Positions 13,581 to 63,523 of a stretch of DNA of 64,000 bases are shown piece after piece. The notes below the pieces were generated by a model. That model saw only the letters and a list, made by a program, of their open reading frames with translations, was not told the DNA's origin and searched no databases. Position 1 is the stretch's first letter. Every line of letters starts with the position of its first letter. The stretch spans positions 291-64,290 of the forward strand of contig NZ_SOFH01000002.1 of the NCBI RefSeq assembly GCF_004402495.1, in the 5' to 3' direction. Made by a program: the position numbers and the translations under genes. This DNA comes from Cryobacterium sp. HLT2-28 (GTDB lineage Bacteria > Actinomycetota > Actinomycetes > Actinomycetales > Microbacteriaceae).

Positions 13581-13641
13581 TGCCGCGAGAGTGCGATTTT
13601 CACCCCTTCTCGTTGAGGGCGAAAACCGCACTTTCGCGGCA
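13581..13641. repeat. Long 3'-end hairpin after clpB
   Basis: Arms of 21 bases at 13581-13601 and 13621-13641 pair with two mismatches (both can be G-U), enclosing a 19-base loop. It begins 27 bases after the clpB stop. The arm core CCGCGAGAGTGCG is shared with the hairpins at 14764-14830 and 18334-18400. No T-run follows, so it may be a terminator of a non-classical kind or an RNA-stabilising end. Confidence 0.75.
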
Positions 13642-13698
13642 AGCGAAAACCGGGGTGACGGACGGGTGACGGTCAGGAGCGGCACCTAGGCTAGAAGG

Positions 13699-14745
13699 AT
13701 GCGTGCAACAGTGATCTACGGCGAACGGGATGTTCGCCTTGAAGAAGTCCCAGACCCCATTCTTTCCACCGGCGGTGACGCCATCGTGCGCGTCGTCGCA
13801 GCCTGCGTCTGCGGCTCGGACCTCTGGCCCTACCGCGGCGTGCAGCCGACCGACGAACCACACCGGATCGGCCATGAATTCGTCGGCATCGTCGAGGAGA
13901 TCGGCGCCGACGTCTCCACCATCAAGGTCGGCGACTTCGTCATCGCGCCGTTCTACGACTGCGACAACACCTGCGTCAACTGTCGCAACGGCGTCAGCAC
14001 CTCCTGCCTGAACGGCGGCTGGTGGGGCTCCGACGACAAGCTCGGCGGCTTCGCCGACGGCGCCCAGGGCGAGAAGGTGCGCGTGCCGCACGCGGACGGC
14101 TCGCTCGTGGCGACCCCGACCCAGCCGACCGACGCCCAGGTTCCGGGCCTCCTCACCCTCGCCGACGTGATGGGCACCGGCCACCACGCCGCAGTGTCGG
14201 CCGGGGTGACCACCGGCAGCACCGTCGTCGTCGTCGGTGACGGCGCGGTCGGACTCTGCGGCATCATCGCCGCCAAGCGCCTCGGCGCCTCCCGGATCGT
14301 GGCGATGTCGCGCAACCCCGAACGGCAGGCCGTTGCCCGCGAGTTCGGTGCGACGGACATCGTCGAAGAGCGCGGCGACGCGGGCGTTGCCCGCATCCGT
14401 GAGATCTTCGACGGCATCGGCGCGGACTGCGTGCTCGAGTGCGTCGGCACGAAGGAGTCGATGGAGCAGGCGATCGCGTCGGCCCGGCCCGGCGGAATGG
14501 TCGGCTATGTCGGCGTGCCCACCGGTGGCCCGATCGAGGTGCGACCGCTGTTCAGTCGCAACGTCGGGCTCAACGGCGGCGTCGCATCCGTGCGCGGCTA
14601 CGTCGAGGAACTGCTGCCCGAGGTGCTCTCCGGCGCGATCAACCCCGGCCGCGTGTTCGACCTCGAACTGCCGCTGTCCGAGGTCGCCGAGGCGTACGCC
14701 GTGATGGACGAGCGCCGCGCGATCAAGGTGCTCCTCCGCCCGTAG
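13699..14745 (+). CDS. Zinc-dependent alcohol dehydrogenase (MDR family)
   Basis: A 348-residue medium-chain dehydrogenase/reductase. The catalytic zinc site is visible as ACVCGSDLWPYRG and RIGHEFVGIVEEIG; the structural zinc site has four Cys in YDCDNTCVNCRNGVSTSC; the NAD(P) Rossmann motif is VVVVGDGAVGLCGIIAAK. Oxidises an alcohol or polyol to aldehyde/ketone with NAD(P)+, in the cytoplasm. The substrate is undetermined; similarity of layout suggests the threonine/sorbitol dehydrogenase-like branch. Stands alone between two long hairpins (after clpB and after its own stop), so it is probably a separate transcription unit. I see no strong Shine-Dalgarno before the ATG (CTAGAAGG is 1-8 bases upstream). 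Confidence 0.92.
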   Translation: MRATVIYGERDVRLEEVPDPILSTGGDAIVRVVAACVCGSDLWPYRGVQPTDEPHRIGHEFVGIVEEIGADVSTIKVGDFVIAPFYDCDNTCVNCRNGVSTSCLNGGWWGSDDKLGGFADGAQGEKVRVPHADGSLVATPTQPTDAQVPGLLTLADVMGTGHHAAVSAGVTTGSTVVVVGDGAVGLCGIIAAKRLGASRIVAMSRNPERQAVAREFGATDIVEERGDAGVARIREIFDGIGADCVLECVGTKESMEQAIASARPGGMVGYVGVPTGGPIEVRPLFSRNVGLNGGVASVRGYVEELLPEVLSGAINPGRVFDLELPLSEVAEAYAVMDERRAIKVLLRP

Positions 14746-14763
14746 CCGGTCCCGGTAACCCCG

Positions 14764-14830
14764 CTCGCGAGAGCGCAAAAAATGGCCCCTTCACGACTCG
14801 TGAGCGGGCCATTTTGGCGCTCTCGCGGAG
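14764..14830. repeat. Long 3'-end hairpin after the alcohol dehydrogenase
   Basis: Arms of about 25 bases (14764-14788 and 14806-14830) carry CGCGAGAGCGC followed by an A/T-rich stretch and TGGCCC, pairing with a single one-base offset; loop 17 bases. Starts 18 bases after the dehydrogenase stop. Shares its GAGAGCG core with the hairpins after clpB and before the nitroreductase. Terminator-like position; no T-run. Confidence 0.75.
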
Positions 14831-14848
14831 GTCGGCAGCCGACAGGCG

Positions 14849-14911
14849 TCAGTCGTCGACGAGGAGCAGCTCGGCGAGGGCGCTGCCTTCACCGTGCGTC
14901 TGCCGGTGCAT
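14849..14911 (-). pseudogene. 3' fragment of a nitroreductase-like gene (relic)
   Basis: Bases 14849-14878 match 17617-17646, the very 3' end of the intact nitroreductase gene, at 28 of 30 positions including the stop codon; both encode an ending like LxELLLV(D/N)D. Upstream of this the reading frame stays open only for about 50 codons with no similarity I can recognise, and the only ATG gives a 20-residue peptide. I interpret it as a duplicated, mostly lost gene end. It could instead be a small repeated 3' element unrelated to coding. Confidence 0.35.
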
Positions 14912-14964
14912 GCCGCCGGGTCCCGTCACGATGACCTCGCCGGTGACATGGCAGGCTGTTCCGT

Positions 14965-15969
14965 ATGAGTCTGTCCCGTATGAGTTCCGTCGATTCCGCT
15001 CCCGTCATCCACGTCCTGCACGAGAACCCGGACTGGTTCGGCCCGTTCCAGGCCGCCTTCGAGGCCGCCGGAGTGCCGTACCGTGAATGGCTGCTGGTGG
15101 ACGGGGTGCTCGACCTCGATGAGGCTCCGCCGGCGGGGATCTACTGGTCGCGGATCAGCGCCTCGGCACACACCCGCGGGCACGGCCTGTCGAAGGACTA
15201 CACCCGCAGCGTGCTGAACTGGCTGGATGCCTACGGCGCCCGCACGGTGAACGGCCGCCGCACCATCGAACTCGAGATGAGCAAGGTCGACCAGCTCACC
15301 CGGCTTCGCGCGCAGGGCTTCGACGTGCCGCTCACCCGCGTGGTCGTCGGTACGCATCTCCTGGTGGCGGCGGCGGAGGGCTTCCCGACCCCGTTCATCA
15401 CCAAGCACAACCAGGGCGGCAAGGGCTTGGGCGTGCAGAAGTTCGACAGTGCGGCCGAACTGGCGGCGGCGATCGCCGCGGGGGACTACGAGGAACCCGA
15501 GGACGGCATCTCGCTGCTGCAGGAGTTCGTCGTGGCCGCCCGCCCCGAGGTCACCCGGGTGGAGATCATCGGCGATGAGTTCATCTACGCGATCACGGCC
15601 GACACCGCGCGCGGCGGCTTCCAGCTCTGCCCGGCGGATGCCTGCGCCATCGACCCGACCACCGGCGCGCTGCTGCTGCCGCCCGGCGCGACCATCCAGC
15701 CCGAGGTGGGACAGCATATCTTCGCCCTCCGTGAGGGGTTCGATCACCCGATCATCGACCGCTACCGGGCATTTTTGCGGGCCGAGGGGATCGAGGTCGC
15801 CGGGATCGAGTTCATCGAGACCGCTGACGGCCGCGTCGTGACCTACGACGTGAACACCAACACCAACTACAACGCCCAGATCGAGGCGTCCGCACCACGC
15901 TCCGGGCCCGGCGCGATCGCGGACTACCTGGCCGCACTGCTCGCCGACGCCTACCCGTCGGCTCGCTAG
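14965..15969 (+). CDS. ATP-grasp ligase, RimK-like
   Basis: A 334-residue cytoplasmic ATP-grasp enzyme. The fold's signatures are visible: the substrate-facing N-terminal domain (VIHVLHENPDWFGPF, SRISASAHTRGH), the ATP-binding lysine strand PFITKHNQGGKGLGVQ, EDGISLLQEFV for the adenine pocket, and the metal-binding end GIEFIETADGRVVTYDVNTNTNYN. RimK-type ligases join glutamate or another amino acid to a carboxylate in a protein or small molecule; no partner gene identifies the substrate here. Two in-frame ATGs (14965 and 14980) stand in a short direct repeat CCGTATGAGT; I keep the first, with AGG about 9 bases upstream. Monocistronic between the hairpin after adh and a convergent flavoprotein. 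Confidence 0.85.
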   Translation: MSLSRMSSVDSAPVIHVLHENPDWFGPFQAAFEAAGVPYREWLLVDGVLDLDEAPPAGIYWSRISASAHTRGHGLSKDYTRSVLNWLDAYGARTVNGRRTIELEMSKVDQLTRLRAQGFDVPLTRVVVGTHLLVAAAEGFPTPFITKHNQGGKGLGVQKFDSAAELAAAIAAGDYEEPEDGISLLQEFVVAARPEVTRVEIIGDEFIYAITADTARGGFQLCPADACAIDPTTGALLLPPGATIQPEVGQHIFALREGFDHPIIDRYRAFLRAEGIEVAGIEFIETADGRVVTYDVNTNTNYNAQIEASAPRSGPGAIADYLAALLADAYPSAR

Positions 15970-15979
15970 CTGCGGGGTT

Positions 15980-16031
15980 GATCACCGTGACAGGCTGCTC
16001 ACCGTGACAGGCTCGATCACCGTGACAGGCT
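15980..16031. repeat. Three tandem 17-bp units spanning a gene's 3' end
   Basis: GATCACCGTGACAGGCT at 15980-15996, a variant (GCTCACCGTGACAGGCT) at 15997-16013, and a perfect copy at 16015-16031. The stop codon of the flavoprotein (15982-15984) lies inside the first unit, so the array encodes its last residues. The words GACAGGCT and GATCACCG also occur in the CTCGACAGGCTCGA repeats at 91-136 and 17538-17584. Confidence 0.85.
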
Positions 16032-17427
16032 TCGGTACCTCCAGCAGGATTCGGCGGGCCGTGAGGCCGATGACCGCACTGTAGGTGGGGTAGGCGAAGC
16101 GCACCCCGGCCAGGGTGGCGACGTCGACGCCGGCGGCCATTGCCGTCGTCACGGACTGGATCACCTCGACCGCGTTCTCCCCGGTGGCATGGGCGCCGAG
16201 GATCAATTCCCGACGTCGGTCGGCGATCAGCTTGAGGAACCCGGGTTCCCGGCCGTCGATCACAGCGCGGTCGAGTTCGGTGTAGGGCACTGTCGCGACG
16301 ACGCAGTGCGGATCGCGAGACCGGGCCTCCTCCTCGGTGAACCCCACTCCCGCGTAGTCGGGGTCGGTGAAGCCGCCGGCCGGAAGCAGGTGGTGCGGCG
16401 TTCTGCGATTGGCTCCCAGCACTGCGTTCTCGGCGGCGGCTTCACCCTCGAACTGGGCGGCCTGCACGAGCATGTCCCGTCCGTTCGCGTCGCCGACGGC
16501 GAAAATGTGTGGCACGACGCTCCGAAAATACAGGTCCACCGGGATCGCCGAACGCGCCGTGGTGATGCCGGCCTTGTCGAGCCCCAGATCGTCGACATCC
16601 GCCGGCCAGCCCGTGGACATGATGACGGCGTCGAAGCCGGAGGAATGCTCCGTTCCGTTCTCGCGCCAGGACAGGGTGAGGGTTCCGTCAGCCTCCCGCT
16701 CGATCGCCGTGACCGTTTCAATGCCCGTGTGCACGGCCACGCCCTGCTGGCGGAACGCCGCCGACACCATGGCGGAGATGTCGGAATCGGAAGCCGTCAG
16801 GATGCGCGGGGCGACGTCGAGCACGGTCACGGCTGAGCCGAACGAGTTGAACACCGTGACCAATTGTGCGCCGGTGTTGCCGGCACCGATCACGGCGACA
16901 CGTCGGGGCAGTTCCGGCAGCTTCAGGATGTCTTCCGGGACGGTCGCCAGGTGCGCCCCCGGCACGGGGAGTCGACGTGAGTGCCCGCCGACGCAGACCA
17001 GGAACGTGTCGGCGGTGAGAATGCGGCCGGTGTCAAGGACGACGGAGTGCGGATCGATGAAACGCGCCCGACCTTCCAGCACGAGTTCGATTCCTGCGTC
17101 AGCGAAACGCTCGGCCTCGCTCTTGATCGAGCGCACCCTGTTCACCCGCGACTGCACCCGGTCCACCATGGTGGCCCAGTCGATGCGTGGGTCGCTGACC
17201 ACGATTCCATAGGTGTCCGCCGCGCGCACCTCGCGCATCAGCCGCGCCGCCTTGGCGAGCACTCTCGTCGGCACGCACCCTGTGTTCACGCAGGTTCCGC
17301 CGAGCTGATCGGCCTCCGCCACGGCGACGCGCGCTCCCAGTTCGGCGGCGCGGAGTGCCGCTGCCGTTCCGGCGGGCCCTGCGCCGATGACGACGACATC
17401 GAAGTGGTCGGGGGTTTTTGGGGTCAT
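15982..17427 (-). CDS. FAD-dependent pyridine nucleotide-disulfide oxidoreductase
   Basis: A 481-residue flavoprotein of the dihydrolipoamide dehydrogenase/mercuric reductase group. FAD site VVVIGAGPAGTAAALRAAE at the N-terminus, redox-active disulfide Cys46/Cys51 in GGTCVNTGCVPT, NAD(P) site VAVIGAGNTGAQLV, and second FAD motif FAVGDANGRDMLVQAA. The C-terminal interface, usually a catalytic His-Glu pair in lipoamide dehydrogenase, reads FAYPTYSAVIG, so His is replaced by Tyr: it is unlikely to be lipoamide dehydrogenase. The last residues (PVTVIEPVTVSSLSR) come from a 17-bp DNA repeat array. ATG start with GGAG at 6 bases; a GTG at 17439 is an alternative. Substrate unknown; MerA-like metal reduction is possible but the terminal Cys pair of MerA is missing. 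Confidence 0.87.
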   Translation of the reverse strand: MTPKTPDHFDVVVIGAGPAGTAAALRAAELGARVAVAEADQLGGTCVNTGCVPTRVLAKAARLMREVRAADTYGIVVSDPRIDWATMVDRVQSRVNRVRSIKSEAERFADAGIELVLEGRARFIDPHSVVLDTGRILTADTFLVCVGGHSRRLPVPGAHLATVPEDILKLPELPRRVAVIGAGNTGAQLVTVFNSFGSAVTVLDVAPRILTASDSDISAMVSAAFRQQGVAVHTGIETVTAIEREADGTLTLSWRENGTEHSSGFDAVIMSTGWPADVDDLGLDKAGITTARSAIPVDLYFRSVVPHIFAVGDANGRDMLVQAAQFEGEAAAENAVLGANRRTPHHLLPAGGFTDPDYAGVGFTEEEARSRDPHCVVATVPYTELDRAVIDGREPGFLKLIADRRRELILGAHATGENAVEVIQSVTTAMAAGVDVATLAGVRFAYPTYSAVIGLTARRILLEVPKPVTVIEPVTVSSLSR

Positions 17428-17537
17428 TGTGGTCTCCACCGGTGGTCACTCCTGAGAGCACCCGGACGCCTGGCCGGAAAAATAGTTGGATGACTTTTTT
17501 ACCGGATGGGGCTGTGGAGTTACTGTGCTGGGACGAG

Positions 17538-17584
17538 GATCTCGACAGGCTCGATCACCGGTGCGGCTGGATCACCGGGTCTCC
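17538..17584. repeat. CTCGACAGGCTCGA-type dispersed repeat
   Basis: Contains CTCGACAGGCTCGATCACCG followed by a near-direct copy GGATCACCGGGTCTCC. Related to the palindrome at 91-136 and the array at 15980-16031. It lies in the gap 17428-17616 between the convergent-side end of the nitroreductase and the start of the flavoprotein; the rest of that gap shows an AT-rich stretch at 17480-17515 that probably contains the flavoprotein promoter region. Confidence 0.6.
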
Positions 17585-17616
17585 ACGGCCGCCGGCGGGC
17601 GGCTGCTAGTCGTTGC

Positions 17617-18210
17617 TCAGTCGTTGACGAGGAGCAGCTCGGTGAGCGGCTTGCGGGTTCGCGGGGCGGTCTCGCGCTCGAGCAGCTCGGGGGAGAGCAG
17701 GGAGACGTCGCCGAGTACGCCGAGGGCGGTGATCGAAACGATGGCCTGGTCCTCGGCGAGGCCGAAGGCCAGGGCAAGAGCGGCGCCGTCGAAGCCGCCG
17801 AGCTGGTGGGTGTGCAGTCCCTCGTGCTGGGCCTGGATCGTCAGGTGCGCGACGGCCTGGCCGAGGTCATAGCGGGCCCAGGGGTTTTCGCGGCTTTCGT
17901 CGATCGCCAGGGTGGCGACGTTCACGATCAGCACGGAGGCGGCATTCGCCCACGCCTTGTTGAATCCCCTCAGCGTCTCGTGCACCTTCACGAAGCTGTC
18001 GGTGCCGCGGCGGGCGACGATGAACCGGGACGGCTGGATGTTGCTGGCCGAGGGCGCCCAGCGGGCGGCCTCGAGCACGGTGGTCAGGGTGGCCTCGTCG
18101 ACGAGGGCCGTCGGGTCGAAGCCGCGCGGGCTCCAGCGCCCGGCGAGCACGGGGAGAAGGGGCGACGTCGTGTCGGCGGCGCGGCTGAGGGTGTCGGTGA
18201 TGAGGGTCAT
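17617..18210 (-). CDS. Nitroreductase family FMN oxidoreductase
   Basis: About 197 residues, typical of the FMN-dependent nitroreductase family that reduces nitro groups, quinones or flavins with NAD(P)H. Motifs: GRWSPRGFD at the N-terminus (the usual RRSxRxF region), EAARWAPSASNIQPSRFIV with the phosphate-binding Ser/Asn/Gln, and YDLGQAVAHLTIQAQHEGLHTHQLGGFD. The ATG at 18210 begins the conserved fold; the open frame upstream is unrelated. No strong Shine-Dalgarno (AAGACGGG 4 bases before). It is downstream of the acyl-CoA synthetase gene but separated by the perfect hairpin at 18334-18400, so possibly a separate unit. Its 3' end is duplicated at 14849. Confidence 0.88.
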   Translation of the reverse strand: MTLITDTLSRAADTTSPLLPVLAGRWSPRGFDPTALVDEATLTTVLEAARWAPSASNIQPSRFIVARRGTDSFVKVHETLRGFNKAWANAASVLIVNVATLAIDESRENPWARYDLGQAVAHLTIQAQHEGLHTHQLGGFDGAALALAFGLAEDQAIVSITALGVLGDVSLLSPELLERETAPRTRKPLTELLLVND

Positions 18211-18333
18211 GGGCCCGTCTTTCGCTGTGTTCGCTGGGGGTGGAGGGGCAACGCTGACCCATCTGCTCCAACGTTCGGCGCTCCCTGCTATTCCACGAGT
18301 CCTGCTCTTCAGGCACGCCGGATGGCCACGACG

Positions 18334-18400
18334 TCTCGCGAGAGCGGGTGAATCGTCGGCAAGGGGCAGCGAAACCGACGATTCACCCGCTCTCGCGAGA
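18334..18400. repeat. Perfect 26-bp hairpin between two genes
   Basis: Two 26-base arms (18334-18359 and 18375-18400) are perfectly complementary, with a 15-base loop. Each arm begins with the self-complementary TCTCGCGAGA, so smaller alternative folds exist. It starts 22 bases beyond the stop of the acyl-CoA synthetase gene (minus strand). Shares the CTCGCGAGAGCG core with the hairpins near 13.6 and 14.8 kb. Terminator-like location without a T-run. Confidence 0.85.
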
Positions 18401-18422
18401 GGGGGACAGGGGGATCTGGCGG

Positions 18423-20114
18423 CTACTCCCCGGTGAGGGAGGCGCGCACCTCGCGGCGGAGTACCTTGCCGACGAGGGACCGGGGGAGCTCGTCGACCTG
18501 CACGATGTTGCGGGGGACCTTGTAGGCGGAGAGCCGGGTGCGGCAGTAGGCGCGCAGCTCCTCGACGTCGAGGGTCGCCCCCTCGCTGAGCACGATCGCG
18601 GCCACGACGTCTTCGCCGCCGTTCTTGCTCGGCAGGCCGACCGCCGCGGCGTCCGCGACATCCGGATGCGAGAGCAGCGCCGCCTCGACCTCCGACGGGG
18701 ACACGTTGAAACCGCCGGTGATGATCAGTTCCTTGATCCGGTCGACGACGGTGATGAAGCCGTCGGCGGAGACCCGCACGATATCGCCGGTGCGCAGCCA
18801 GCCGCCCGGAAGCAGCACCTTCGCACTCTCGCTCGGCTGGTCCCAGTAGCCGGAGAAGACTTGCGGGCCGCGGATGAGCAGCTCGCCCTCCTCTTCGATG
18901 CCCCGGTCGACGGTCGGGTCGGCCGGGTCGACCACCCGGATCTCCGTGCTCGGGAACGGGACCCCGACGGTGCCCGGCCGCCGGGTCGGCCCCATCGGGT
19001 TGCCGACGGCGATCGGCGAGGCCTCGGTCATGCCGTAGCCCTCGACCAGCAGTCCGCCGGTCGCGGCCTCCCAGCGTTCGACGATCGACACCGGCAGGCT
19101 CATCGCGCCCGAAATGGCGAAGCGGATGCTGCGCAGGCTCACCTGGCGTTTCGCGGCGGCCGTGACCAGCCGGTCGTAGATCGGCGGGACCGCGGGCATG
19201 AACGTCGGCGGGGTGCGCCGGGCCGCGTCGAGCAGCAGCCCCTCGTCGAACTTGGGGAACAGGACGAGCCGGGCCCCGGTGGCCATCGCGAAGGTGAGGC
19301 ACAGGGTGAGGCCGTAGGCGTGGAACATCGGAAGGACCGCGTAGAACACCTCCTCGCCCACGTGCAGGCCCGGCACCCACGCCTCGCCCTGGAGGGCGTT
19401 CGCGCGCAGGTTGAAGTGGCTGAGGATGGCGCCCTTGGGGCTGCCGGTCGTGCCGCTGGTGTACTGCAGCGCGGCGGTGTCGCCGATCTTCGGCCGGGGG
19501 TGGTTGTGGCGGAGTTTGCGCGACCCGAGGAGCGAGGACCAGTCGATCGCGCCCTTCGGCAGCGAGTCCACGGTGAGGGCGCTCCGGGCGGCGCGGGCCT
19601 TGCCGACGGGCAGCCGCAGCGCCACCCGTTTGGCGAAGGGCATGGCCTCCGTCAGGTCGACGGCGATCACGGAGCGCAGCCCCATGTCGGCCGGGAAGTC
19701 GCGCACGGTCGAATAGACCTTGTCCCAGACCACGGCCACGGTGGCGCCGTGGTCCTCGAACTGGTGCCGCAGCTCACGCTCGGTGTAGAGCGGGTTGTGC
19801 TCGACCACGATCGCGCCGAGCCGGAGCACAGCGTAGAACGCCACCACGTGCTGGGGGCAGTTCGGCAGCACGAGGGCCACTCGGTCGCCGGGCTTCACGC
19901 CGAGGCGCAGCAGCCCGTTGGCCACCCGGGAGATCTGCTCGCCGAGTTCGGCGTAGCTGGTCGTGGCGCCGAAGAAGTCGAGCGCGACGTCGCCGGAGAA
20001 CCGCCGCACCGACGTCTCGATCATGTCGACGAGGGTCTCGGTCGGCTCGGTGATGGTGGAGGGAACGCCGGGCGCGTACGCACCGAGCCAGGGCTTGTTC
20101 GCGAACGCGTTCAT
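18423..20114 (-). CDS. fadD: Long-chain acyl-CoA synthetase (AMP-dependent ligase)
   Basis: Activates a fatty or other carboxylic acid with ATP and CoA through an acyl-AMP. 563 residues, normal for FadD. Motifs: P-loop-like YTSGTTGSPKGAILSH, AMP-binding EGYGMTEASP, GWLRTGDIVR with ribose-binding Asp, DRIKELIITGGFNVSP linker/hinge and the catalytic Lys in SLVGKVLRREVR. The ATG overlaps the stop of the upstream PLP enzyme (ATGA, 4 bases), so translation is coupled; AAGGAA lies inside that gene. The coupling to a threonine-aldolase-like enzyme is uncommon and argues for a shared pathway; ordinary fatty-acid catabolism remains the default. Confidence 0.9.
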   Translation of the reverse strand: MNAFANKPWLGAYAPGVPSTITEPTETLVDMIETSVRRFSGDVALDFFGATTSYAELGEQISRVANGLLRLGVKPGDRVALVLPNCPQHVVAFYAVLRLGAIVVEHNPLYTERELRHQFEDHGATVAVVWDKVYSTVRDFPADMGLRSVIAVDLTEAMPFAKRVALRLPVGKARAARSALTVDSLPKGAIDWSSLLGSRKLRHNHPRPKIGDTAALQYTSGTTGSPKGAILSHFNLRANALQGEAWVPGLHVGEEVFYAVLPMFHAYGLTLCLTFAMATGARLVLFPKFDEGLLLDAARRTPPTFMPAVPPIYDRLVTAAAKRQVSLRSIRFAISGAMSLPVSIVERWEAATGGLLVEGYGMTEASPIAVGNPMGPTRRPGTVGVPFPSTEIRVVDPADPTVDRGIEEEGELLIRGPQVFSGYWDQPSESAKVLLPGGWLRTGDIVRVSADGFITVVDRIKELIITGGFNVSPSEVEAALLSHPDVADAAAVGLPSKNGGEDVVAAIVLSEGATLDVEELRAYCRTRLSAYKVPRNIVQVDELPRSLVGKVLRREVRASLTGE

Positions 20115-21199
20115 CGGGCTGCCAGTTCCTTCTTCAGGGCGTCGACGAACGCGTCGATGTCCTCCTCGGTGGTGTCGAAGCCGCACATCCAGCGCACCTC
20201 GTTCCGGGCCGCGTCCCAGTCGTAGAAGCGGAACGACTCGCGCAACCGGTCGGCGACCCCGGCGGGCACCACCGCGAACACGGCGTTGGACTGGGTGGCC
20301 TGGCTGAAGCTGACGCCCTGGATCGAGCCGTCCGCCACGCCCCGCTCGAGGGCGGCGCGCAGCCGGGCGGCCATCTCGTTGGCGTGGCCGGCGTTGCGCC
20401 GCCAGAGGTCGTTCTCGAGCAGCGCGATCAGCTGGGCGGAGATGAAGCGCATCTTCGACGCCAGCTGCATGTTCAGCTTGCGCAGGTAGATCAGGCCGTC
20501 GGATGCCTCGGGGTTGAGCACCACGACGCACTCGCCGTACATCATGCCGTTCTTGGTGCCGCCGAAACTGAGCACGTCGACGCCGGCGTCGCGGGTGAAC
20601 GCCCGGAACGGCAGCCCGAGCGAGGCAGCGGCGTTGGAGAGCCTCGCCCCGTCCATGTGCAGCTTCATGCCGTGCGCGTGCGCATGGTCGGCAATGGCCC
20701 GCACCTCGTCGACGGTGTACAGGGTGCCGAGCTCGGTGGTCTGGGTGATCGACACGACGAGCGGCTGGGCGCGGTGCTCGTCGCCCCAGCCCCAGGCCTG
20801 CTGGTCGATCAGCGCCGGGGTGAGCTTGCCGTCGGGGGTGTCCACGGTGAGCAGCTTGATGCCGGCCACCTTCTCCGGCGCCCCGGCCTCGTCGGAGTTG
20901 ATGTGCGCGGTCGACGCGCAGACCACCGCCCCCCAGCGCGGCAGCATCGACTGCAGCCCGATCACGTTGGCGCCGGTGCCGTTGAACACGGGGAAGGCTT
21001 CGACGCCCGGGCCGAAGTGCTCCGCGAAGACCTCCTGCAGCCGGGCCGTGTAGACGTCTTCGCCGTAGGCGATCTGGTGGGCGCCGTTCGCCCGGGTGAT
21101 GGCGCCCAGGATCTCGGGATGCACGCCCGAGTAGTTGTCCGAGGCGAAACCGCGCGAGCTGAGGTCATGGAGTTGAGTCACTCCTCCATCTTCGCGCAT
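20111..21199 (-). CDS. Low-specificity L-threonine aldolase-like PLP enzyme
   Basis: A 362-residue PLP enzyme of the beta-eliminating lyase/aldolase family (fold type I). Visible: substrate/PLP contacts FASDNYSGVHPEI and NGTGANVIGLQ, the Asp that binds the pyridine nitrogen in LHMDGARLSNAAASLG, and the Schiff-base Lys in LSFGGTKNGMMYG. Family members cleave L-threonine or L-allo-threonine to glycine and acetaldehyde, or related 3-hydroxy amino acids. ATG at 21199 has AAGGAG 4 bases upstream. Stop overlaps the acyl-CoA synthetase start. Preceded by an SDR gene but separated from it by a perfect 26-bp hairpin. Exact amino acid substrate not determinable. Confidence 0.88.
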   Translation of the reverse strand: MREDGGVTQLHDLSSRGFASDNYSGVHPEILGAITRANGAHQIAYGEDVYTARLQEVFAEHFGPGVEAFPVFNGTGANVIGLQSMLPRWGAVVCASTAHINSDEAGAPEKVAGIKLLTVDTPDGKLTPALIDQQAWGWGDEHRAQPLVVSITQTTELGTLYTVDEVRAIADHAHAHGMKLHMDGARLSNAAASLGLPFRAFTRDAGVDVLSFGGTKNGMMYGECVVVLNPEASDGLIYLRKLNMQLASKMRFISAQLIALLENDLWRRNAGHANEMAARLRAALERGVADGSIQGVSFSQATQSNAVFAVVPAGVADRLRESFRFYDWDAARNEVRWMCGFDTTEEDIDAFVDALKKELAAR

Positions 21200-21222
21200 C
21201 AAGCTCCTTCGAGGCCGCAGCC

Positions 21223-21288
21223 GACTGTTGCCCGGGCGGACAACTGTTCCCGGGGTGACGGCAACAGTTGTCCGCCCGGGCAACAGTC
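21223..21288. repeat. Perfect 26-bp hairpin after the SDR gene
   Basis: Arms 21223-21248 and 21263-21288 are perfectly complementary over 26 bases; loop 14 bases (rich in G and C). It begins only 6 bases beyond the stop of the SDR gene (minus strand) and ends 24 bases before the aldolase start. Arm length is identical to the hairpin at 18334-18400 though the sequence is unrelated. Confidence 0.85.
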
Positions 21289-21294
21289 AGTGAT

Positions 21295-22125
21295 TCACGG
21301 TGTCGGCGGGGCCAGGAACACCCGGGTGTTGTTGACGGATGCGGCATCCGTGTCCCAGAGGCCGACGACGCGGCCGGCGAGCTCGGTTTCGAGCCCGTCG
21401 AGTGCCTTGACGACGAAGACGACGGCCGCGGCCGGCGCCCCGGCCTTGCGGAAGCCCTGCCCGACGGCGCGGGTCCAGGTCTCGGCGGCGGCCTTCGTGG
21501 CGGCGTAGTTCGCCCCGCCGGCGAGCGGGTTGTCGACCGACACTGAGGAGACGATCGCCAGGCGACCGGCGGGCGAGGCCAGCAGGTCGTCGTTGAAGGC
21601 GCGGGTCGTGTTGCGGAGGGTGGTCACGACATTACGGTGCAGGAAGTCCCAGTCCTCGTCGGACTGCCCGGCGAGGCCGCCGCCGCCGCGCCAACCGCCG
21701 ACAAGGTGGATGAGGCCGTCGATCGGACCGTGCTCGGCATGTACCACCGCGGCGAGGCTGGTCACGGCCGCGAAGTCGGCCAGGTCGCACTGGTAGGTCA
21801 CGGCGGCCGGGACGGCGGCCCGGAGTGTGCGCAGCCGTTCGACGTGGGAACCGACCGCGATCACTCCCGCGCCGGCCCTGGCGAGGGCGGAGACCACGGC
21901 GAGGCCGGCGGCGCTGGTCGCCCCGGCGACGAGCACGATGCGACCGGCCACGGTTGGCCCGGCCACGGTGCTGCCGTCGGCGTCCTCTTCGGCGGCGTAG
22001 GCCGCGGCGCGGTCGATCCCGGATGCCTGGCCCGCGCGGTCGATCCCGGATGCCTGGCCCGAGCGGTCGACCGTGGGGCCGGCGTCAGACGCCGACCCCA
22101 CGGTGTCGTCCGGTCGTTCAGTCAC
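21295..22125 (-). CDS. SDR-family oxidoreductase with repeat-expanded N-terminus
   Basis: 276 residues. The Rossmann domain starts near residue 60 (GRIVLVAGATSAAGLAVVSAL; a variant of TGxxxGxG), with CDLADFAAVT for cofactor specificity, LIHLVGGWRGGGG, catalytic Ser in AIVSSVSVDNP and YxxxK in NYAATKAAAE. Cytoplasmic NAD(P)-dependent reductase of unknown substrate. Residues 1-58 are an extra, low-complexity leader containing a tandem peptide repeat (GQASGIDRA twice) that comes from a 27-bp DNA duplication. The GTG start overlaps the stop of the DUF6421 gene by 8 bases, implying translational coupling. The real start could also lie inside this leader. Confidence 0.82.
   Translation of the reverse strand: MTERPDDTVGSASDAGPTVDRSGQASGIDRAGQASGIDRAAAYAAEEDADGSTVAGPTVAGRIVLVAGATSAAGLAVVSALARAGAGVIAVGSHVERLRTLRAAVPAAVTYQCDLADFAAVTSLAAVVHAEHGPIDGLIHLVGGWRGGGGLAGQSDEDWDFLHRNVVTTLRNTTRAFNDDLLASPAGRLAIVSSVSVDNPLAGGANYAATKAAAETWTRAVGQGFRKAGAPAAAVVFVVKALDGLETELAGRVVGLWDTDAASVNNTRVFLAPPTP
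22007..22072. repeat. 27-bp tandem duplication inside the SDR gene
   Basis: Two perfect 27-base copies (22007-22033 and 22034-22060), followed by a 12-base imperfect third start. In frame, so it repeats nine residues in the N-terminal leader of the SDR protein. One of several short tandem duplications in this window. Confidence 0.9.
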
Positions 22126-23497
22126 GCCCGGTGAGCCCGGCCGTCGACTCGATCACGGTCTTCATCTTCTTGTCGAGCGCCTCGAAGAACATCGACAGCG
22201 GGAACTCGTCGTCGAGGACGAGGTCGGTGTACCCCTTCGGCGCGCCGGCGAGCACCTCCAACGGCAGGCCGCGAGCCCAGGTCGACGCCGGGTTCGGCGT
22301 CAGTGTCTTCGCGATCATCTCGTAGGCGGCCAGCCAGTGCGCCTTCTTCGGCCGGTCGATCGACGCCCAGTACAGGTCGTCGATCTGCGCGCCGAGGGCG
22401 ATGACGACCTCGGGCACTGCCTCCCAGTCGAAGGTGAGCGCCGTGTCGGTCCAGTGCAGCACGTGGTGCTGGTGCATCCACGCGAAGAGCAACTGGCCGC
22501 CGAGCCCGTCGTAGTTGCGCACCCGGCTGCCGCTGATCGCGAACCGGAAGATCCGGTCGAAGATCACGGCGTACTGCACCAGTTTCGCGTGCTTGCGCGC
22601 CTCGGGGCTGGCCGCCTCGTCGCGTTCGATCGTGACCGATTCGCGGAAAGCGGTCAGGTCGCAGCGCAGTTCCTCGAGGGAGTAGAGGAAGAACGGCATC
22701 CGCTGCTTGATCATGAACGGGTCGAACGGCAGGTCGCCGCGCATGTGCGTGCGGTCGTGGATGAGGTCCCACATCACAAAGGTTTCCTCGGTGAGGTGCT
22801 GGTCGTCCAGGAGCGCGGCGGCGTCGGCGGGCAGGTCGAGACGGGTGATCCCGGCGGCCGCGCGCACCACCCGGCGGAACCTCGCGGCCTCCCGGTCGGC
22901 GAAGATCGCCCCCCAGGTGAACGTGGGGATCTCGCGCATCGCGACGGTCTCGGGGAACAGGACGGCCGAGTTGGTGTCGTAGCCGGGCGTGAAGTCGAGG
23001 AACCGGATCGGCACGAACAGCCCGTTCGTGTACTCCTTCTCCAGTTCGTCGATGAACGCCGGCCAGATGACCTCGATCAGCACGGCCTCGACCAGGCGGT
23101 TGGTGCTGCCGTTCTGGGTGTACATCGGGAACACGACCAGGTGGCGGATGCCGTCGGCCCGGTGCAGCTGCGGCTGGAAGGCCATCAGCGAGTCGTAGAA
23201 GTCGGGCTCGCCGAAGCCCTCCGCGACCCAGCGGGCGAAGTCCCTCGTGAGTGCCGTCAGGTAGGCGGCGTCGTGCGGGAAGCGCGGGGCGAGCTCGTCG
23301 ACGGCTTCGGTGATCGTCGCCACGTGGGCGGCGGCATCCGGGTGCGCGGTGGCCTCGGGGACCGAACCGTTCTTGACCTGCAGAGCCTGCAGCGCGGTGG
23401 CGGCGGCCTTGAGGCGGAGCCAGGCGGGGGAGGCGGCGACATCCTCGAGAACCTCGGGCTCACCGACCAGTGCTTCTTGCGCAACATAATTCGACAT
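22118..23497 (-). CDS. DUF6421 family protein
   Basis: A 459-residue cytoplasmic protein that I recognise as the actinobacterial DUF6421 family; function unknown. No signal peptide or membrane helix. Notable conserved-looking stretches: TRDFARWVAEGFGEPDFYDS, LVVFPMYTQNGSTNRLVEA, and a polar run EETFVMWDLIHDRTHMRGD whose His, Asp and Glu could bind a metal or act in catalysis (my inference). ATG start with GGGAGG 5 bases upstream. First gene of a leftward series: its end overlaps the SDR start by 8 bases, and an aldolase-like PLP enzyme and acyl-CoA synthetase follow. I infer participation in the same, undescribed metabolic route. Confidence 0.8.
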   Translation of the reverse strand: MSNYVAQEALVGEPEVLEDVAASPAWLRLKAAATALQALQVKNGSVPEATAHPDAAAHVATITEAVDELAPRFPHDAAYLTALTRDFARWVAEGFGEPDFYDSLMAFQPQLHRADGIRHLVVFPMYTQNGSTNRLVEAVLIEVIWPAFIDELEKEYTNGLFVPIRFLDFTPGYDTNSAVLFPETVAMREIPTFTWGAIFADREAARFRRVVRAAAGITRLDLPADAAALLDDQHLTEETFVMWDLIHDRTHMRGDLPFDPFMIKQRMPFFLYSLEELRCDLTAFRESVTIERDEAASPEARKHAKLVQYAVIFDRIFRFAISGSRVRNYDGLGGQLLFAWMHQHHVLHWTDTALTFDWEAVPEVVIALGAQIDDLYWASIDRPKKAHWLAAYEMIAKTLTPNPASTWARGLPLEVLAGAPKGYTDLVLDDEFPLSMFFEALDKKMKTVIESTAGLTGRD

Positions 23498-23636
23498 GGG
23501 AACCTCCCGTCCTCCTGGATGCCGCGGTTGCGGCAGTGGCGGCGCCGGCTTCAGCGCCACGGTCCAGCGTATCGGGACGACCCCGGCGTTTTCTTGCGAC
23601 TTCCCGCAACGAATCGCCGGAAACGTGGTCTGACCT

Positions 23637-23710
23637 CGCCGAATTCGAGCGTTTCGGTCGAGGTCGTCACTTCCGGCGGCCGGGCTCGACCGGAAAGGTC
23701 GATGTCGGCG
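23637..23710. repeat. 26-nt-arm inverted repeat in a divergent promoter region
   Basis: Arms 23637-23662 and 23685-23710 match at 21 of 26 positions around a 22-base loop; core words CGCCGA and CGGTCGAG. The same arm length, loop length and core occur at 34366-34439. Unlike the other long hairpins it lies between divergent genes (DUF6421 and the AlkD-like gene), so termination is unlikely here. The gap 23498-23755 otherwise holds an AT-richer segment near 23590. Confidence 0.75.
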
Positions 23711-23755
23711 GGGGCGCGGCGGGCGAGGGAGCGGCTTCCGAGCTACCCTGCGAGG

Positions 23756-24559
23756 GTGACGGATGCGACGGTGACGGATGCGATGGGCACGGCGGGCACC
23801 ACGGCATCCGTGGGCGCGGCGGCATCCGTGGTCGCGGCGCTGGCCGAGCTCGCGGACCCGGCGCGCGCCGAGGGTGCATCCCGGTACTTCCAGGGCGGCC
23901 CGGGCCAGTACGGCGAGGGGGACGTGTTCCTCGGGGTCAGTGTGCCGGCGACCCGGCAGGTGGTGAAGCGCTTCACCGGGCTTCCGTTGGCCGAGATCGA
24001 CCTGCTCCTGGCCAGCCCGGTGCACGAACACCGGCTCGCCGCACTGCTGATTCTGGTGGCCCGGTTCGAACGGGCCGGCACGACCCGTCACCGCGACGAC
24101 GACGCGCGCGCCGCCATCGCCGGGTTCTACCTCGACGCCGTGCGCCGCGGCCGGGTCAACAATTGGGACCTGGTCGACTCGTCGGCTCCCGCGGTGCTCG
24201 GCGGGTACCTCTTCGACCGGCCGCGCGGCGTGCTGTTCGAGCTGGCCGGCAACGAACTGCTCTGGCAGCGGCGCACGGCGATGATCGCCACGCTCGGCTT
24301 CATCGCCCGCGGCGACGCGTCGACGACGCTCGAACTCTCCGCGCTGCTCCTGGACGACACGGAGAGCCTGATCCACAAGGCGGTCGGCTGGATGCTGCGC
24401 GAGGTCGGCAAGCGCGTCGACCGGGCCCTGCTGCTCGCCTTCCTCGACGAGAACGCCGGGCGGATGCCGCGCACCGCGCTCAGCTACGCGACCGAGCACC
24501 TCGACGCCGGGCTGCGCGCCCACTACCGGGCACTGCCCCGGCCCACGGATCGGACGTGA
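23756..24559 (+). CDS. alkD: DNA alkylation repair protein, AlkD-like
   Basis: About 267 residues of HEAT-like helical repeats, the AlkC/AlkD DNA glycosylase family that excises alkylated purines without base flipping. Recognisable: VFLGVSVPATRQVVKRF near the N-terminus, EHRLAALLILV, the signature RGRVNNWDLVDSSAPAVLG, WQRRTAMIATLGFI, and LIHKAVGWMLREVGKR. The N-terminal 25 residues are Ala/Thr/Val-rich and repetitive (tandem GTGACGGATGCG in the DNA), so the start is uncertain: GTG 23756, GTG 23771 or ATG 23783 are all in frame and none has a convincing Shine-Dalgarno. Four bases before the DUF1622 gene, so cotranscribed. Confidence 0.88.
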   Translation: MTDATVTDAMGTAGTTASVGAAASVVAALAELADPARAEGASRYFQGGPGQYGEGDVFLGVSVPATRQVVKRFTGLPLAEIDLLLASPVHEHRLAALLILVARFERAGTTRHRDDDARAAIAGFYLDAVRRGRVNNWDLVDSSAPAVLGGYLFDRPRGVLFELAGNELLWQRRTAMIATLGFIARGDASTTLELSALLLDDTESLIHKAVGWMLREVGKRVDRALLLAFLDENAGRMPRTALSYATEHLDAGLRAHYRALPRPTDRT

Positions 24560-24562
24560 ACC

Positions 24563-24931
24563 ATGGCATTCGAAGAGGTCATCCGGACGGTCGTGCAGGT
24601 GGTCGAGGCGGCCGGCGCCGGGATCATGGTGCTGGGCGGGGCCTCCGCGTTCGTCGTGGCGGTGCCGCGGGCGCTCGCCGCCGCCACGCGGAAGAGCGCC
24701 TACACCGAGCTGCGCCGCAACCTCGGCCGGGCGATCCTGCTCGGGCTGGAGGTGCTGATCGTGGCCGACATCATCCGCACGATCCTGGTCGACCTGACCA
24801 CGGAGAGCGTGCTCGGCCTGGCCGGGATCGTCATCATCCGGATCCTGCTCAGCTTCTCGCTCGAGGTGGAGATGGACGGCGTCTGGCCGTGGGCGCGCTG
24901 GCGGATGCGCCGCGGCGACCCGCCGTCCTGA
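24563..24931 (+). CDS. DUF1622 domain membrane protein
   Basis: 122 residues with three hydrophobic helices (about 14-36, 53-72 and 77-96). The pattern RRNLGRAILLGLEVLIVADIIRTI is the DUF1622 signature; function unknown, inner membrane. ATG follows the alkylation-repair stop by 3 bases. A DNA-repair plus small membrane protein pairing is not obviously meaningful. Confidence 0.82.
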   Translation: MAFEEVIRTVVQVVEAAGAGIMVLGGASAFVVAVPRALAAATRKSAYTELRRNLGRAILLGLEVLIVADIIRTILVDLTTESVLGLAGIVIIRILLSFSLEVEMDGVWPWARWRMRRGDPPS

Positions 24932-25256
24932 CCGGCCTGGGCCAGGGTCGCGCCCGGGCAGGCAGCCCTGATCGCATCCGCCTGAAAAAAACCGGCGGGT
25001 ACCGGTGCGCAGTCTTCTCGTGAGAGCGCGACCATGTTTGGCTGGTCATCACCGCAATCGGGCGACCGCCGGCGGCGTGAACGGAGATTCGGCTGTCGCC
25101 CCAGACGAAGAACGAGTTTCGACTCTTCCCTAATAACCGTTATCGTTGCTAATGATACGTGAAGATTTACAGGACCTTCTCAGCCGGCCACCGCGGTTTG
25201 CACGAGTCGTGCCAGGGGGAATCCCACGTTCCACATCCACATCAAGGGAGAACCAA
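24932..25256. other. Gene-free leader region before the PTS permease
   Basis: 325 bases without a convincing gene. It holds a run of seven A bases near 24986, a weak hairpin GACCA-N8-TGGTC at about 25030, a degenerate CTCGTGAGAGCGCG (half of the local hairpin core), and then the promoter/operator described at 25118-25146. The 110-base leader after it shows no riboswitch or antiterminator (RAT) structure that I can recognise. Confidence 0.5.
25118..25146 (+). promoter_or_regulatory. Promoter and small operator of the PTS gene
   Basis: TTCGAC (25118-25123), 17 bases, TATCGT (25141-25146) resembles a sigma-70-type promoter. The inverted repeat ATAAC-C-GTTAT (25133-25143) overlaps the -10 box, and a second imperfect dyad ATCGTTGCTAATGAT follows at 25142-25156. 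This suggests a transcription factor site; no regulator gene is adjacent. Computed by eye only. Confidence 0.4.
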
Positions 25257-27317: not shown

Positions 27318-27331
27318 GACACCATACGGAC

Positions 27332-27363
27332 AGGGTGGGCAGAGAATCTTCTCTGCCCACCCT
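27332..27363 (+). terminator. Intrinsic terminator of the PTS gene
   Basis: Perfect 15-bp stem AGGGTGGGCAGAGAA (27332-27346) and TTCTCTGCCCACCCT (27349-27363) with a 2-base loop, followed by TTCTGTCTGTT. Fifteen bases after the PTS stop codon. Also lies on the 3' side of the convergent methyltransferase. Confidence 0.92.
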
Positions 27364-27374
27364 TTCTGTCTGTT

Positions 27375-27418: not shown

Positions 27419-27465
27419 CGGATGCGCAGGTCGCCGCGTCAGCGACTCAACGCGGGGCCTCCGGG

Positions 27466-34365: not shown

Positions 34366-34439
34366 CGCCGTGATCGACCTTTTCGGTCGAGGCCGACCGG
34401 TGTGCCGGTCGCCCTCGACCGGAATGGCAGATCTCGGCG
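34366..34439. repeat. 26-nt-arm hairpin after the xylulokinase relic
   Basis: Arms 34366-34391 and 34414-34439 match at 21 of 26 positions around a 22-base loop; begins 6 bases after the relic's stop. Same family as 23637-23710 (CGCCG...TCGACCTTT..CGGTCGAG). Terminator-like position, no T-run. Confidence 0.78.
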
Positions 34440-35399: not shown

Positions 35400-35454
35400 T
35401 GAGATGCGGAGAATGCACCTTCGTGGCGCGGGAGGGTGCTTTTTCCGCAACTCA
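35400..35454. repeat. Long hairpin after the SDR gene
   Basis: Arms of 21-22 bases (35400-35420 and 35433-35454) pair with a few mismatches; loop 12 bases. Thirty-four bases after the SDR stop. The descending arm contains CTTTTTCC, the closest to a T-run among these hairpins, so it is the best terminator candidate of the family. It separates the SDR from the riboswitch unit. Confidence 0.72.
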
Positions 35455-43204: not shown

Positions 43205-43270
43205 CGCGGCTCAGGTTGGGGAAGGCGGCTCAGGTTGGACCCTGCGCCCGCCTCCCCAACCTGAGCCGCG
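43205..43270. repeat. Long hairpin ending the rbs operon
   Basis: Arms 43205-43228 and 43248-43270 pair over 23 bases with one bulged A. The 19-base loop begins with another copy of the arm word (GCGGCTCAGGTTGG occurs at 43207 and again at 43225), so the descending arm could pair with either copy. Starts 4 bases after rbsD. Likely transcript end; no T-run. Confidence 0.8.
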
Positions 43271-49946: not shown

Positions 49947-49957
49947 TCGGGTCCTCC

Positions 49958-62359: not shown

Positions 62360-62702
62360 GCTCCTCACGATCGAGAGCGGGCCGGCGCCGCCGGACTCCG
62401 GCGGATCTAGCCCGGCGACCGGAGGCATCCGCGGTGAAACCGACCCCACCGCCGACCGTCGGGATGGAGTTTTTCGCGACGCGCCGGTTGCCTCGGCGCG
62501 AATGGCGGCGAGTCGCGCAAATCTCCGTCTGAACCATCCTGCGTTGCGGCAGCTGCGGCCGGGCATGGCGCGACCCGGGGCATCCGGGCACGCCGTCGAC
62601 GCGCTCGAGCGACGGCTCGGCGGAGGCCTGCGGTGAGCCCGGTGCTTCTCGCGAGCATCGCCGGGCTGGGCCGGGCCGACCCGCGACGGTAAACTTCGGG
62701 GC
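62360..62702. other. Gene-free gap between the peptidase and cofC
   Basis: 343 bases. Contains a small perfect hairpin CCGCCGG-ACT-CCGGCGG (62388-62404, possible peptidase terminator without a T-run), the inverted repeat at 62466-62526, and a 23-codon open stretch near 62565-62636 (MARPGASGH...) that looks fortuitous. Nothing else recognised. Confidence 0.55.
62466..62526. repeat. Inverted repeat upstream of cofC, paired with 63463-63523
   Basis: Arms 62466-62485 and 62507-62526 match at 17 of 20 positions; an inner GCGCCG-N7-CGGCGC fits in the middle. The leading words ATGGAGTTTTTCGCGAC recur as ATGGAGTTATTCGCGAC at 63461, and ATCTCCG follows both. The two copies flank cofC about 1 kb apart. 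Confidence 0.75.
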
Positions 62703-63425
62703 ATGGAATCGGGGCAGTCGGCGCAGTGGGTGGCGGTCGTCCCGGTGAAGGGAAACCCGGACGCGAAGAGCCGGCTCGGCGACCGGCCCGACCGGCCCCG
62801 GCTGGCGGATGCCTTCGCCCTCGACACGGTCGCAGCGGTGCTCGCGGCACCGCGGGTGGGCCGGGTGCTGGTAGTCACGGCCGATGACGCCCTCGCCGCA
62901 CGGTTGGCCGCCCTCGGGGCGGAGATCGTGCCGGAAGCAGCCGTGCCGGAAGCAGCCGTGCCCGTGACGGAACCGGCTGCCGGGGAGGGTTCCGGCGAGA
63001 GCGCCCGGCCTCCGGCCGGCCCGATGAACGCGGCGATCCGGCAGGGGCTGACCGCGGCGCGCACCCGGTTCCCGCGGGCGAACCTGCTGGTGCTGACCGG
63101 GGATCTCCCGGCCCTCACGCCCGCCGACGTCGAGCAGGCCCTCGCGCTCGCCGCCGGCCACGAGCGATCGATGGTTCCCGACGCCGCCGGAACCGGCACG
63201 ACGACCCTGCTCGCGCTCGCCGGGGTGCCGGTCGAGCCCCGCTTCGGGCCGGGCTCGCGGGCGGCGCACGAGGCCGCCGGGCACGTTCCCCTGGAGATCC
63301 CGCCGGCCGCCGGCATCCGCAGCGACGTCGACACCGCCGCCGACCTGCTCGTCGCGGAGCGCCTCGGGCTCGGGGTGCACACGCGTCCCCTGGTCGCCGC
63401 CGACCCGGCCTCGATCGGGCGCTGA
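62703..63425 (+). CDS. cofC: 2-phospho-L-lactate/PEP guanylyltransferase
   Basis: Activates 2-phospholactate or phosphoenolpyruvate with GTP for F420 biosynthesis (FbiD in mycobacteria). 240 residues. Nucleotidyltransferase fold: VAVVPVKGNPDAKSRLGD, DTVAAVLAAPRVGRVLVVTAD, MNAAIRQGLTAAR, LLVLTGDLPALTPADVEQAL and GTGTTTLLA. Residues EAAVPEAAVPV derive from a 15-bp tandem duplication (62928-62957) in a surface loop. The start ATG lacks a strong Shine-Dalgarno (GGGGC adjacent). Closely follows the F420 set but separated from cofE by the peptidase. Confidence 0.93.
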   Translation: MESGQSAQWVAVVPVKGNPDAKSRLGDRPDRPRLADAFALDTVAAVLAAPRVGRVLVVTADDALAARLAALGAEIVPEAAVPEAAVPVTEPAAGEGSGESARPPAGPMNAAIRQGLTAARTRFPRANLLVLTGDLPALTPADVEQALALAAGHERSMVPDAAGTGTTTLLALAGVPVEPRFGPGSRAAHEAAGHVPLEIPPAAGIRSDVDTAADLLVAERLGLGVHTRPLVAADPASIGR

Positions 63426-63462
63426 CTCCGGGCGCCTGCTCCGGGCGCTGACGCTCCGGAAT

Positions 63463-63523
63463 GGAGTTATTCGCGACACGCGGTGTTTCCGGGCGCGGAT
63501 CGCGGCGCGTCCCGAGGATCTCC
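63463..63523. repeat. Inverted repeat after cofC, second copy
   Basis: Arms 63463-63482 and 63504-63523 match at 14 of 20 positions. Homologous to 62466-62526 in its outer words. Thirty-seven bases after the cofC stop, between convergent genes; terminator-like location. Confidence 0.6.

Follow-up and report, generated by a model that had tools for sequence, protein, structure and literature searches.

Families of palindromic repeats, several of near-fixed length, lie predominantly at gene 3′ ends in Cryobacterium sp. HLT2-28

We analyzed a 64,000-nt stretch of contig NZ_SOFH01000002.1 from Cryobacterium sp. HLT2-28 (Microbacteriaceae), a member of a cold-adapted genus, hereafter called the window, in which a preliminary description had listed ten long intergenic hairpins close to stop codons. 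All ten were found at the positions given there (Table 1), and each folds as a stem-loop with an energy between -29.7 and -60.8 kcal/mol. Direct computation on the sequence gave the presence of these elements, their grouping into families, a bias toward gene 3′ ends and convergent gaps, a near-fixed length in families A, B and H, pairing across diverged copies of B, and differing occupants of the same site. Our preferred reading, held with slightly better than even confidence, is that the hairpins are several families of repeats resembling REPINs (doublets of repetitive extragenic palindromic, REP, sequences that form hairpins) which would act at transcript ends, and that one superfamily, G/H, would be constrained as DNA.

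To assess the frequency of such hairpins we used 1,144,448 bp of the HLT2-28 genome (31% of it), comprising 169 kb of intergenic and 975 kb of genic sequence according to gene calls from our own script, which is not a published gene finder. Hairpins were scored as ungapped inverted repeats with thresholds of at least 16 and at least 14, and three dinucleotide shuffles of the intergenic DNA served as the chance control. At a score of at least 16, we detected 36 intergenic and 1 genic inverted repeats and none in the three shuffles. At a score of at least 14, the numbers were 62 and 3, with 0.33 per shuffle. A chance origin was rejected given this excess over both genes and shuffles. The preliminary description had taken an equal density inside genes or in shuffled intergenic sequence as evidence against itself; no such equality was seen, since genic density is more than 100-fold below intergenic density at the lower threshold.

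The hairpins are not evenly placed. In tandem gaps, 29 of 32 hairpins with a score of at least 14 are closer to the upstream stop codon than to the next start, with a median distance of 27 nt (two hairpins overlapping a called gene end were dropped). When gaps of at least 30 bp were counted by orientation, we found 21 hairpins in 106 convergent, 34 in 382 tandem and 5 in 145 divergent gaps; the divergent class differs from the convergent one at P = 3e-5 and from the tandem one at P = 0.04. The suspected enrichment at 3′ ends is thus real. Within the window, nine of the ten elements lie within 110 nt of a stop by our gene calls, as first described, the exception being 23637. Hairpins are also denser on the contig of the window, with 15 in 110 kb, than on the remaining 1035 kb sampled, with 47 (P = 0.0006).

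Families were built by all-versus-all comparison of intergenic regions and extended by profile searches. This resulted in about ten palindromic families in the own-genome sample, which we lettered A to J. D occupies 10 places (one of them weak and genic), A and H 8 each (one H copy inside a called gene), C 6, and E, F and I 4 each; B has three overlapping subtypes of 3 places each, G has 3 places and J has 2. "At least three" sequence subfamilies had been proposed for the ten listed elements, which proved to be too few, as they fall into six families (A, B, D, E, F and G).

That architecture is conserved more than sequence, as had been suggested, is right and can be put more strongly, because the length of the elements is nearly fixed. 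With 40–80 bp permitted, 25 of 35 B elements measure exactly 55 bp from GAGAG to CTCTC, and their loops share little identity (median 0.40). Similarly, 9 of 11 A elements were found at 62 bp with 46–86 bp permitted. The two D elements in the window have 74 bp, and this length was also the most frequent one when the family was searched loosely (13 of 40). When C, D, E and F were searched with loose patterns, lengths were mixed and false members appeared, and an apparent 63-bp group of E was rejected as E when it proved to be H. As these patterns are unreliable, our statements on length use A, B and H only, and D with caution. The near-fixed length and inverted ends of A, B and perhaps D indicate a REPIN-like build.

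Next to length, pairing is maintained in B. At positions 6–20 of 18 distinct left arms, the pairing fraction is 0.91 with the right arm of the same element and 0.55 with those of other elements, and this difference indicates covariation. The two perfect 26-bp stems noted earlier are indeed present, as the outer arms of 18334 and 21223.

The exact end pattern of H is present in 23 copies in the own genome. It was not detected in any of the 247 further genomes sampled from the order, which include two of Cryobacterium, and a control with the reversed pattern was empty. Among 57 Cryobacterium genomes, the own genome included, 19 carry H, and the highest copy numbers, counted as exact matches to both ends, are 131, 112, 101, 69, 49 and 41. 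Some species therefore hold more than 100 copies, and most congeners have no exact-pattern copy. The ends are nearly invariant and 44 of 48 distinct copies are exactly 77 bp long. The centre of about 40 bp is free in sequence, with a pairwise identity of 0.43 versus 0.42 after column permutation and only 4 of 946 pairs above 0.7. Since this centre is not self-complementary (0.355 versus 0.391), an RNA hairpin running through the whole H element was rejected.

The A/T content of the H centre oscillates between about 0.1 and 0.85 with a 10-bp period, and the autocorrelation peaks at 10 and 20–21 bp. The swing is confined to the 85-bp element and ends at its edges. Phasing is seen in 45 of the 46 copies taken from other genomes, a figure for which the peaks were partly learned from the same copies, and in all 8 own copies; the latter test is independent, and peaks learned from other genomes alone predict the own copies with a z of 8.4. 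Periodicity z-scores of the families other than H rest on related copies and serve as hints only.

We then compared orthologous H sites. These comparisons (22 between orthologous copies, and 28 of presence with 35 of absence) are directed, and many pairs are counted twice. Over the 22, the ends are 94% and the centres 62% identical, with mostly genic flanks at 89%, and the length stays at 77 bp except in one 76-bp copy (genome G254; a single 91-bp reading was an artefact of the relaxed pattern). Of 46 placed copies, 18 are convergent, 17 tandem and 2 divergent, 2 fall within called genes and 7 at stretch edges, and 15 of the 17 tandem copies are closer to the stop. We searched with the end core common to the species, covering 31% of the own genome together with parts of relatives; of 114 distinct H-end matches, 113 have a partner within 160 bp and the other has a disrupted one. 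Taken together, length, phasing, orthologues and placement suggest that the shape and spacing of the DNA are constrained, and not RNA pairing. The pattern looks like that of bent or wrapped DNA.

The ends of G, GGAG[AT]TTTT and AAAA[AT]CTCC or close variants, correspond in sequence and spacing to those of the inner 61-bp part of H. When all sequence examined was searched with relaxed G ends, 70 of 80 matches fell at 61 bp; most of these are H, and some come from overlapping loci. Seven distinct 61-bp places do not have the outer ends of H, among them L167 in Mycetocola, and one 61-bp place of this kind, L206, is probably a decayed H. Judged by spacing and ends, G (62466, 63463) and H appear to form one superfamily. 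We tentatively propose, as a possibility short of an even chance, that G/H represents a new type of dispersed chromosomal site: conserved inverted ends at fixed spacing and a middle free in sequence but fixed in length and A/T phase, which may be built for a lineage-specific protein to bend or wrap, at the 3′ ends of genes and between convergent gene pairs.

J was found in 4 of 199 Microbacteriaceae genomes, which are all four Cryobacterium of that sample. Seven copies measure 72, 73, 84 or 85 bp, and the family as seen in the own genome, G125, L122, L016 and L019 falls into two length classes, 72–73 and 84–86 bp, with A/T clusters visible by eye at roughly each 10 bp. The difference of about one helical turn between the classes is suggestive only.

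A protein search places the genome in Cryobacterium; we kept 80 loci from it, 37 of them from Cryobacterium, and we label two sets of Cryobacterium loci CryoA (12 loci) and CryoB (25 loci). All derive from one chromosomal neighbourhood, and they are thus neither a genome sample nor independent. Downstream of the dehydrogenase gene next to element 14764, a clear B-type hairpin is present in 8 of 22 Cryobacterium loci; L135 holds a decayed B-type copy, L110 and L113 hold other families, and the others carry another hairpin or none. L143, whose protein is 98.5% identical, retains only a remnant. Past the Clp-like gene, one B subtype is common to the window, L108 and L143, L112, L115 and L117 have another, L110 carries an H element and further loci have none. 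Downstream of the AMP-binding gene, the GGGTGAATCGTCG subtype occupies the window, L112, L115 and L117, the TTTTCGCCC subtype occupies L108 and L109, and many loci are empty. The slot at the gene 3′ end recurs while its occupant changes between species.

Across these loci, hairpin density is above the own-genome mean in Leifsonia, Curtobacterium, Plantibacter and Arthrobacter and below it in a second Cryobacterium group and in Mycetocola. Long 3′-end hairpins are thus a feature of a wider group, and H and J, the families searched by end pattern across genomes, are local. Two further genomes, G223 (another family of the order) and G216 (another genus of the same family), carry CGCGAGAG..CTCTCGCG palindromes of their own, which differ in the interior and contain repeated inner motifs; the pattern matches 20 times, with overlaps, in G223 and 6 times in G216.

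Table 1. Hairpin elements of the window, with family, position and gene context
Element	Position	Gene context	Further features
B-type palindrome (CCGCGAGAGTGC..GCACTTTCGCGG)	13581..13641	27 nt past stop of ClpB-like AAA gene 11400-13553(+)	GAGAG..CTTTC distance 49, below the usual 55 of the family
B-type palindrome	14764..14830	18 nt past stop of zinc dehydrogenase gene 13711-14745(+)	GAGAG..CTCTC distance 56
B-type palindrome, perfect 26-bp arms (GAGAGCGGGTGAATCGTCGG)	18334..18400	22 nt past stop of AMP-binding gene 18423-20114(-)	distance 55
A-type palindrome (GACTGTTGCC..GGCAACAGTC)	21223..21288	6 nt past stop of SDR gene 21295-22125(-)	CTGTTGCC..GGCAACAG distance 62
D-type palindrome (CGCCGA..TCGGCG), 74 bp	23637..23710	sole listed element between divergent genes	
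D-type palindrome, 74 bp	34366..34439	55 nt past stop of FGGY kinase gene 33252-34310(+)	matches 16 distinct genome places including itself, E<=1e-8
F-type palindrome (TGAGATGCGGAGAATGCACC..)	35400..35454	34 nt past stop of SDR gene 34556-35365(+)	TTTTT within right arm
E-type palindrome (CGCGGCTCAGGTTGGGGAAGG..)	43205..43270	4 nt past stop of RbsD-like gene 42817-43200(+)	
G-type element, 61 bp (GGAGTTTTTCGCGAC..AAATCTCC)	62466..62526	106 nt from stop	length equal to inner 61 bp of H, ends close to it
G-type element, 61 bp	63463..63523	37 nt past stop of gene 62703-63425(+), convergent gap	
Further intergenic hairpin, 14-bp perfect stem, then T-rich tail	27332..27363	14 nt past stop of gene 25293-27317(+)	one pair altered on both sides yet still paired in nearest relative

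For these hairpins, the preliminary description had suggested a lineage-specific terminator or mRNA-end element, with a T-run at 35400 only. A T-run after the stem is indeed missing; within the right arm, 14764 also has TTTT. Among 56 tandem hairpins of the own genome and CryoA (score of at least 14), the 8 nt past the stem contain 0–1 T in 39 cases, 2 in 10 and 3–4 in 7. When 13000-32500 and 34000-53900, where eight of the ten elements lie, were scanned for terminators, one of the eight, 35400, was overlapped, and terminator sites were no richer than in shuffles (6 versus 5.9 and 3 versus 4.0, respectively). With no T-run directly after the stem and scans at shuffle level, we rejected the canonical intrinsic terminator as a general explanation. 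What stands of the suggestion is the 3′-end bias; H and J are restricted to Cryobacterium in the samples searched.

According to our preferred reading, the hairpins would be REPIN-like copies with two conserved inverted ends and an interior of near-fixed length, which are gained, lost and exchanged as units, mostly at gene 3′ ends. The paired families would persist where they are useful or harmless, i.e. at transcript ends. In A, B, D, E and F the transcribed palindrome may fold at the end of the mRNA and mark or protect that end, and polymerase may be stopped in both directions without a U-tract, along the lines discussed for structured ends lacking U in Streptomyces (PMC8269248). In G/H, a protein would hold on to both conserved ends, and the A/T-phased middle would bend around that protein.

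The interior of REPINs is described, in the portion of the source available to us, as having length and hairpin capacity as its critical features, with conserved inverted ends and compensatory changes (PMC3116915). Inverted ends with a fixed spacer are seen in H, B and A. A hairpin spacer with compensation is seen in B across diverged copies and not in H, and compensations are few between close species. The earlier suggestion of "relics of a REP/MITE-like replicator" (MITE, miniature inverted-repeat transposable element) is partly borne out by the build of A, B and H; "relics" is doubtful for H, with ends at 94% and centres at 62% identity between species.

Several observations weigh against our preferred reading. 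PF01797 (the Y1 transposase family, which includes the REP-associated tyrosine transposases, RAYTs) has no match in the own genome, while the control was positive in 5 of 14 named genomes including E. coli; with no Y1 transposase found there, the engine of REPINs is missing. Element 23637, one of the ten, is not at a 3′ end. The fixed length of D is weakly supported by its 13 of 40 loose matches, and 13581 (49 bp) and 14764 (56 bp) deviate from the length of B. Dense 3′ hairpins in Leifsonia, Curtobacterium, Plantibacter and Arthrobacter loci indicate a class wider than these families. Finally, stem changes relative to two close relatives (14 sites; the gappy alignments of 21223 and 34366 with G250 were dropped) comprise 38 single and 3 double breaks versus 18 G-U pairs, 5 restored and 4 doubly compensated pairs. 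As changed pairs are mostly broken, pairing is loosely kept per site over short times. To us, this suggests that entire palindromes turn over, or are now and then repaired in a single step, more than that selection acts tightly on every stem.

None of the 10 elements listed for the window has GTAG/CTAC near its ends; among H copies, 2 of 59 do. We found no plasmid match for one H copy and no phage match for one B copy, and Rfam at gathering threshold returned only a riboswitch from the window. At empty and filled H sites no target duplication was evident, in flanking intergenic DNA that is too diverged and aligns poorly, and no unpaired H end was seen beside a transposase in the sequence covered, which is 31% of the own genome plus portions from relatives. 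Among the papers listed in our literature searches, none reports these repeats in Cryobacterium; in one Cryobacterium genome paper, a term search found palindromes mentioned for clustered regularly interspaced short palindromic repeats (CRISPR) only (PMC7381226).

We considered four other explanations. It is somewhat doubtful, though most apt for G/H, that the elements are DNA sites which gyrase, a different topoisomerase or some nucleoid protein wraps where transcription accumulates supercoils, the hairpin being incidental. The 10-bp phasing of an H centre free in sequence, confined to the element, would suit such sites, as would the mostly convergent and tandem placement of H near stops. Gyrase is near-universal among bacteria, yet H is present in 19 of 57 congeners, and wrapping does not explain the pairing in A, B, D and E. 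The gyrase motif of E. coli, with phased 10-bp G/C variation, and gyrase cutting at BIME-2 repeats (bacterial interspersed mosaic elements) favour wrapping, but this motif spans about 130 bp in the source as available, and H phasing stops at 85 bp (PMC6379681); gyrase is thus only one candidate for the G/H protein. We judge it unlikely that the hairpins are bidirectional terminators without a U-tract ("I-shaped") that are selected gene by gene and form families through occasional copying only. Such terminators would account for the 3′-end and convergent bias and the low downstream T content, and similar hairpins occur in other actinobacterial genera; structured transcript ends of Streptomyces clavuligerus mapped by Term-seq mostly have no U-rich tract (353 of 535, in the part of the paper available; PMC8269248). 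They require no fixed length, yet B is held at 55 bp with low-identity loops and H at 77 bp with an unpaired centre, and changes over short times often break the stems.

Quite improbable, in our view, are MITEs of a classical DNA transposon, in which a fixed length and a bendable middle would aid end pairing during transposition. Presence and absence between species, copy numbers of H from 0 to 131 and the near-universal pairing of its ends are what such elements would give. H centres, by contrast, have no detectable common descent, their identity being that of the column-permuted control; H ends are conserved at orthologous sites while the centres drift; and neither target duplications, in poor alignments, nor unpaired ends beside a transposase, in the sequence covered, were seen. 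Template-switch correction of imperfect palindromes could produce perfect arms without selection. Quasipalindrome correction is a generally known process, and occasional one-step repair would fit diverged B copies that remain paired while close species accumulate single changes. Correction of this kind leaves the 3′-end bias, the fixed lengths and the phasing of the unpaired H centre unexplained, and we consider it very unlikely as the source of these elements.

Other features were observed alongside the hairpins. A cyclic di-GMP-I riboswitch (Rfam RF01051, 44.5 bits) lies at 35569-35642, directly 5′ of gene 35659-37197 and about 115 nt past hairpin 35400. A perfect palindrome, GTATGGAATCGTTTCCATGGAAACGATTCCATAC, at 37298-37331 is kept in two relatives just 5′ of gene 37353; it looks like a putative regulator operator and not a 3′-end hairpin, presumably resembling LacI-family sites. 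The window starts (1-144) in what we take to be the end of a ribosomal RNA gene, and this part contains a hairpin at 46-77 and a copy of a GGTGGTCGAGCC..GTCGAGACC repeat. A short tandem repeat of CAGGCCGGGCCGGGAA is located at 43836-43897, with a related array on another contig. A near-identical sequence of about 93 bp stands at the starts of own contigs C5, C6, C9, C11 and C15 and is probably a repeated insertion sequence that breaks the assembly.

These repeats tie together two open questions: how transcript ends are marked without a T-run in GC-rich bacteria, and how REPIN-like repeats are carried where no RAYT is found. H copies, which agree in ends, length and 10-bp phase and have unrelated middles, are natural replicates that make a third question testable, whether a genomic site can be selected for DNA bendability alone. 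The range from 0 to 131 copies within one genus lends itself to a comparison aimed at identifying their cognate protein.

Among known systems, the REPINs of Pseudomonas and others are matched by B in all features and by A in inverted ends and length, as far as the accessible description goes (PMC3116915). Unlike REPINs, the elements described here come without a RAYT found in the own genome and without GTAG-tagged ends, as several unrelated families per genome, and with a strong bias to gene 3′ ends; the interior of H is A/T-phased and does not form a hairpin. CGTC-tagged REPs, in the available part of their description, are units of 20–40 bp without a dedicated transposase that lie mainly in unidirectional and convergent gaps (PMC3733652). 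Our elements are likewise palindromic repeats, with no dedicated transposase found and with a similar gap preference, but they are units of 55–85 bp and nearly fixed length. CGTC/GACG can be seen by eye in the H ends, and H is at most a candidate member of the CGTC-tagged REPs. The BIME-2 gyrase sites of E. coli are also intergenic repeated palindromes whose protein prefers a 10-bp phased composition; by description rather than by sequence, and as the available text gives it, the phased stretch is 85 bp here versus about 130 bp there (PMC6379681). I-shaped terminators of GC-rich bacteria share with our hairpins the GC-rich stems, at putative transcript ends in our case, and the missing T-run, and, unlike those terminators as partly described, the Cryobacterium elements form repeat families with a fixed total length and an A/T phase at the level of DNA (PMC8269248).

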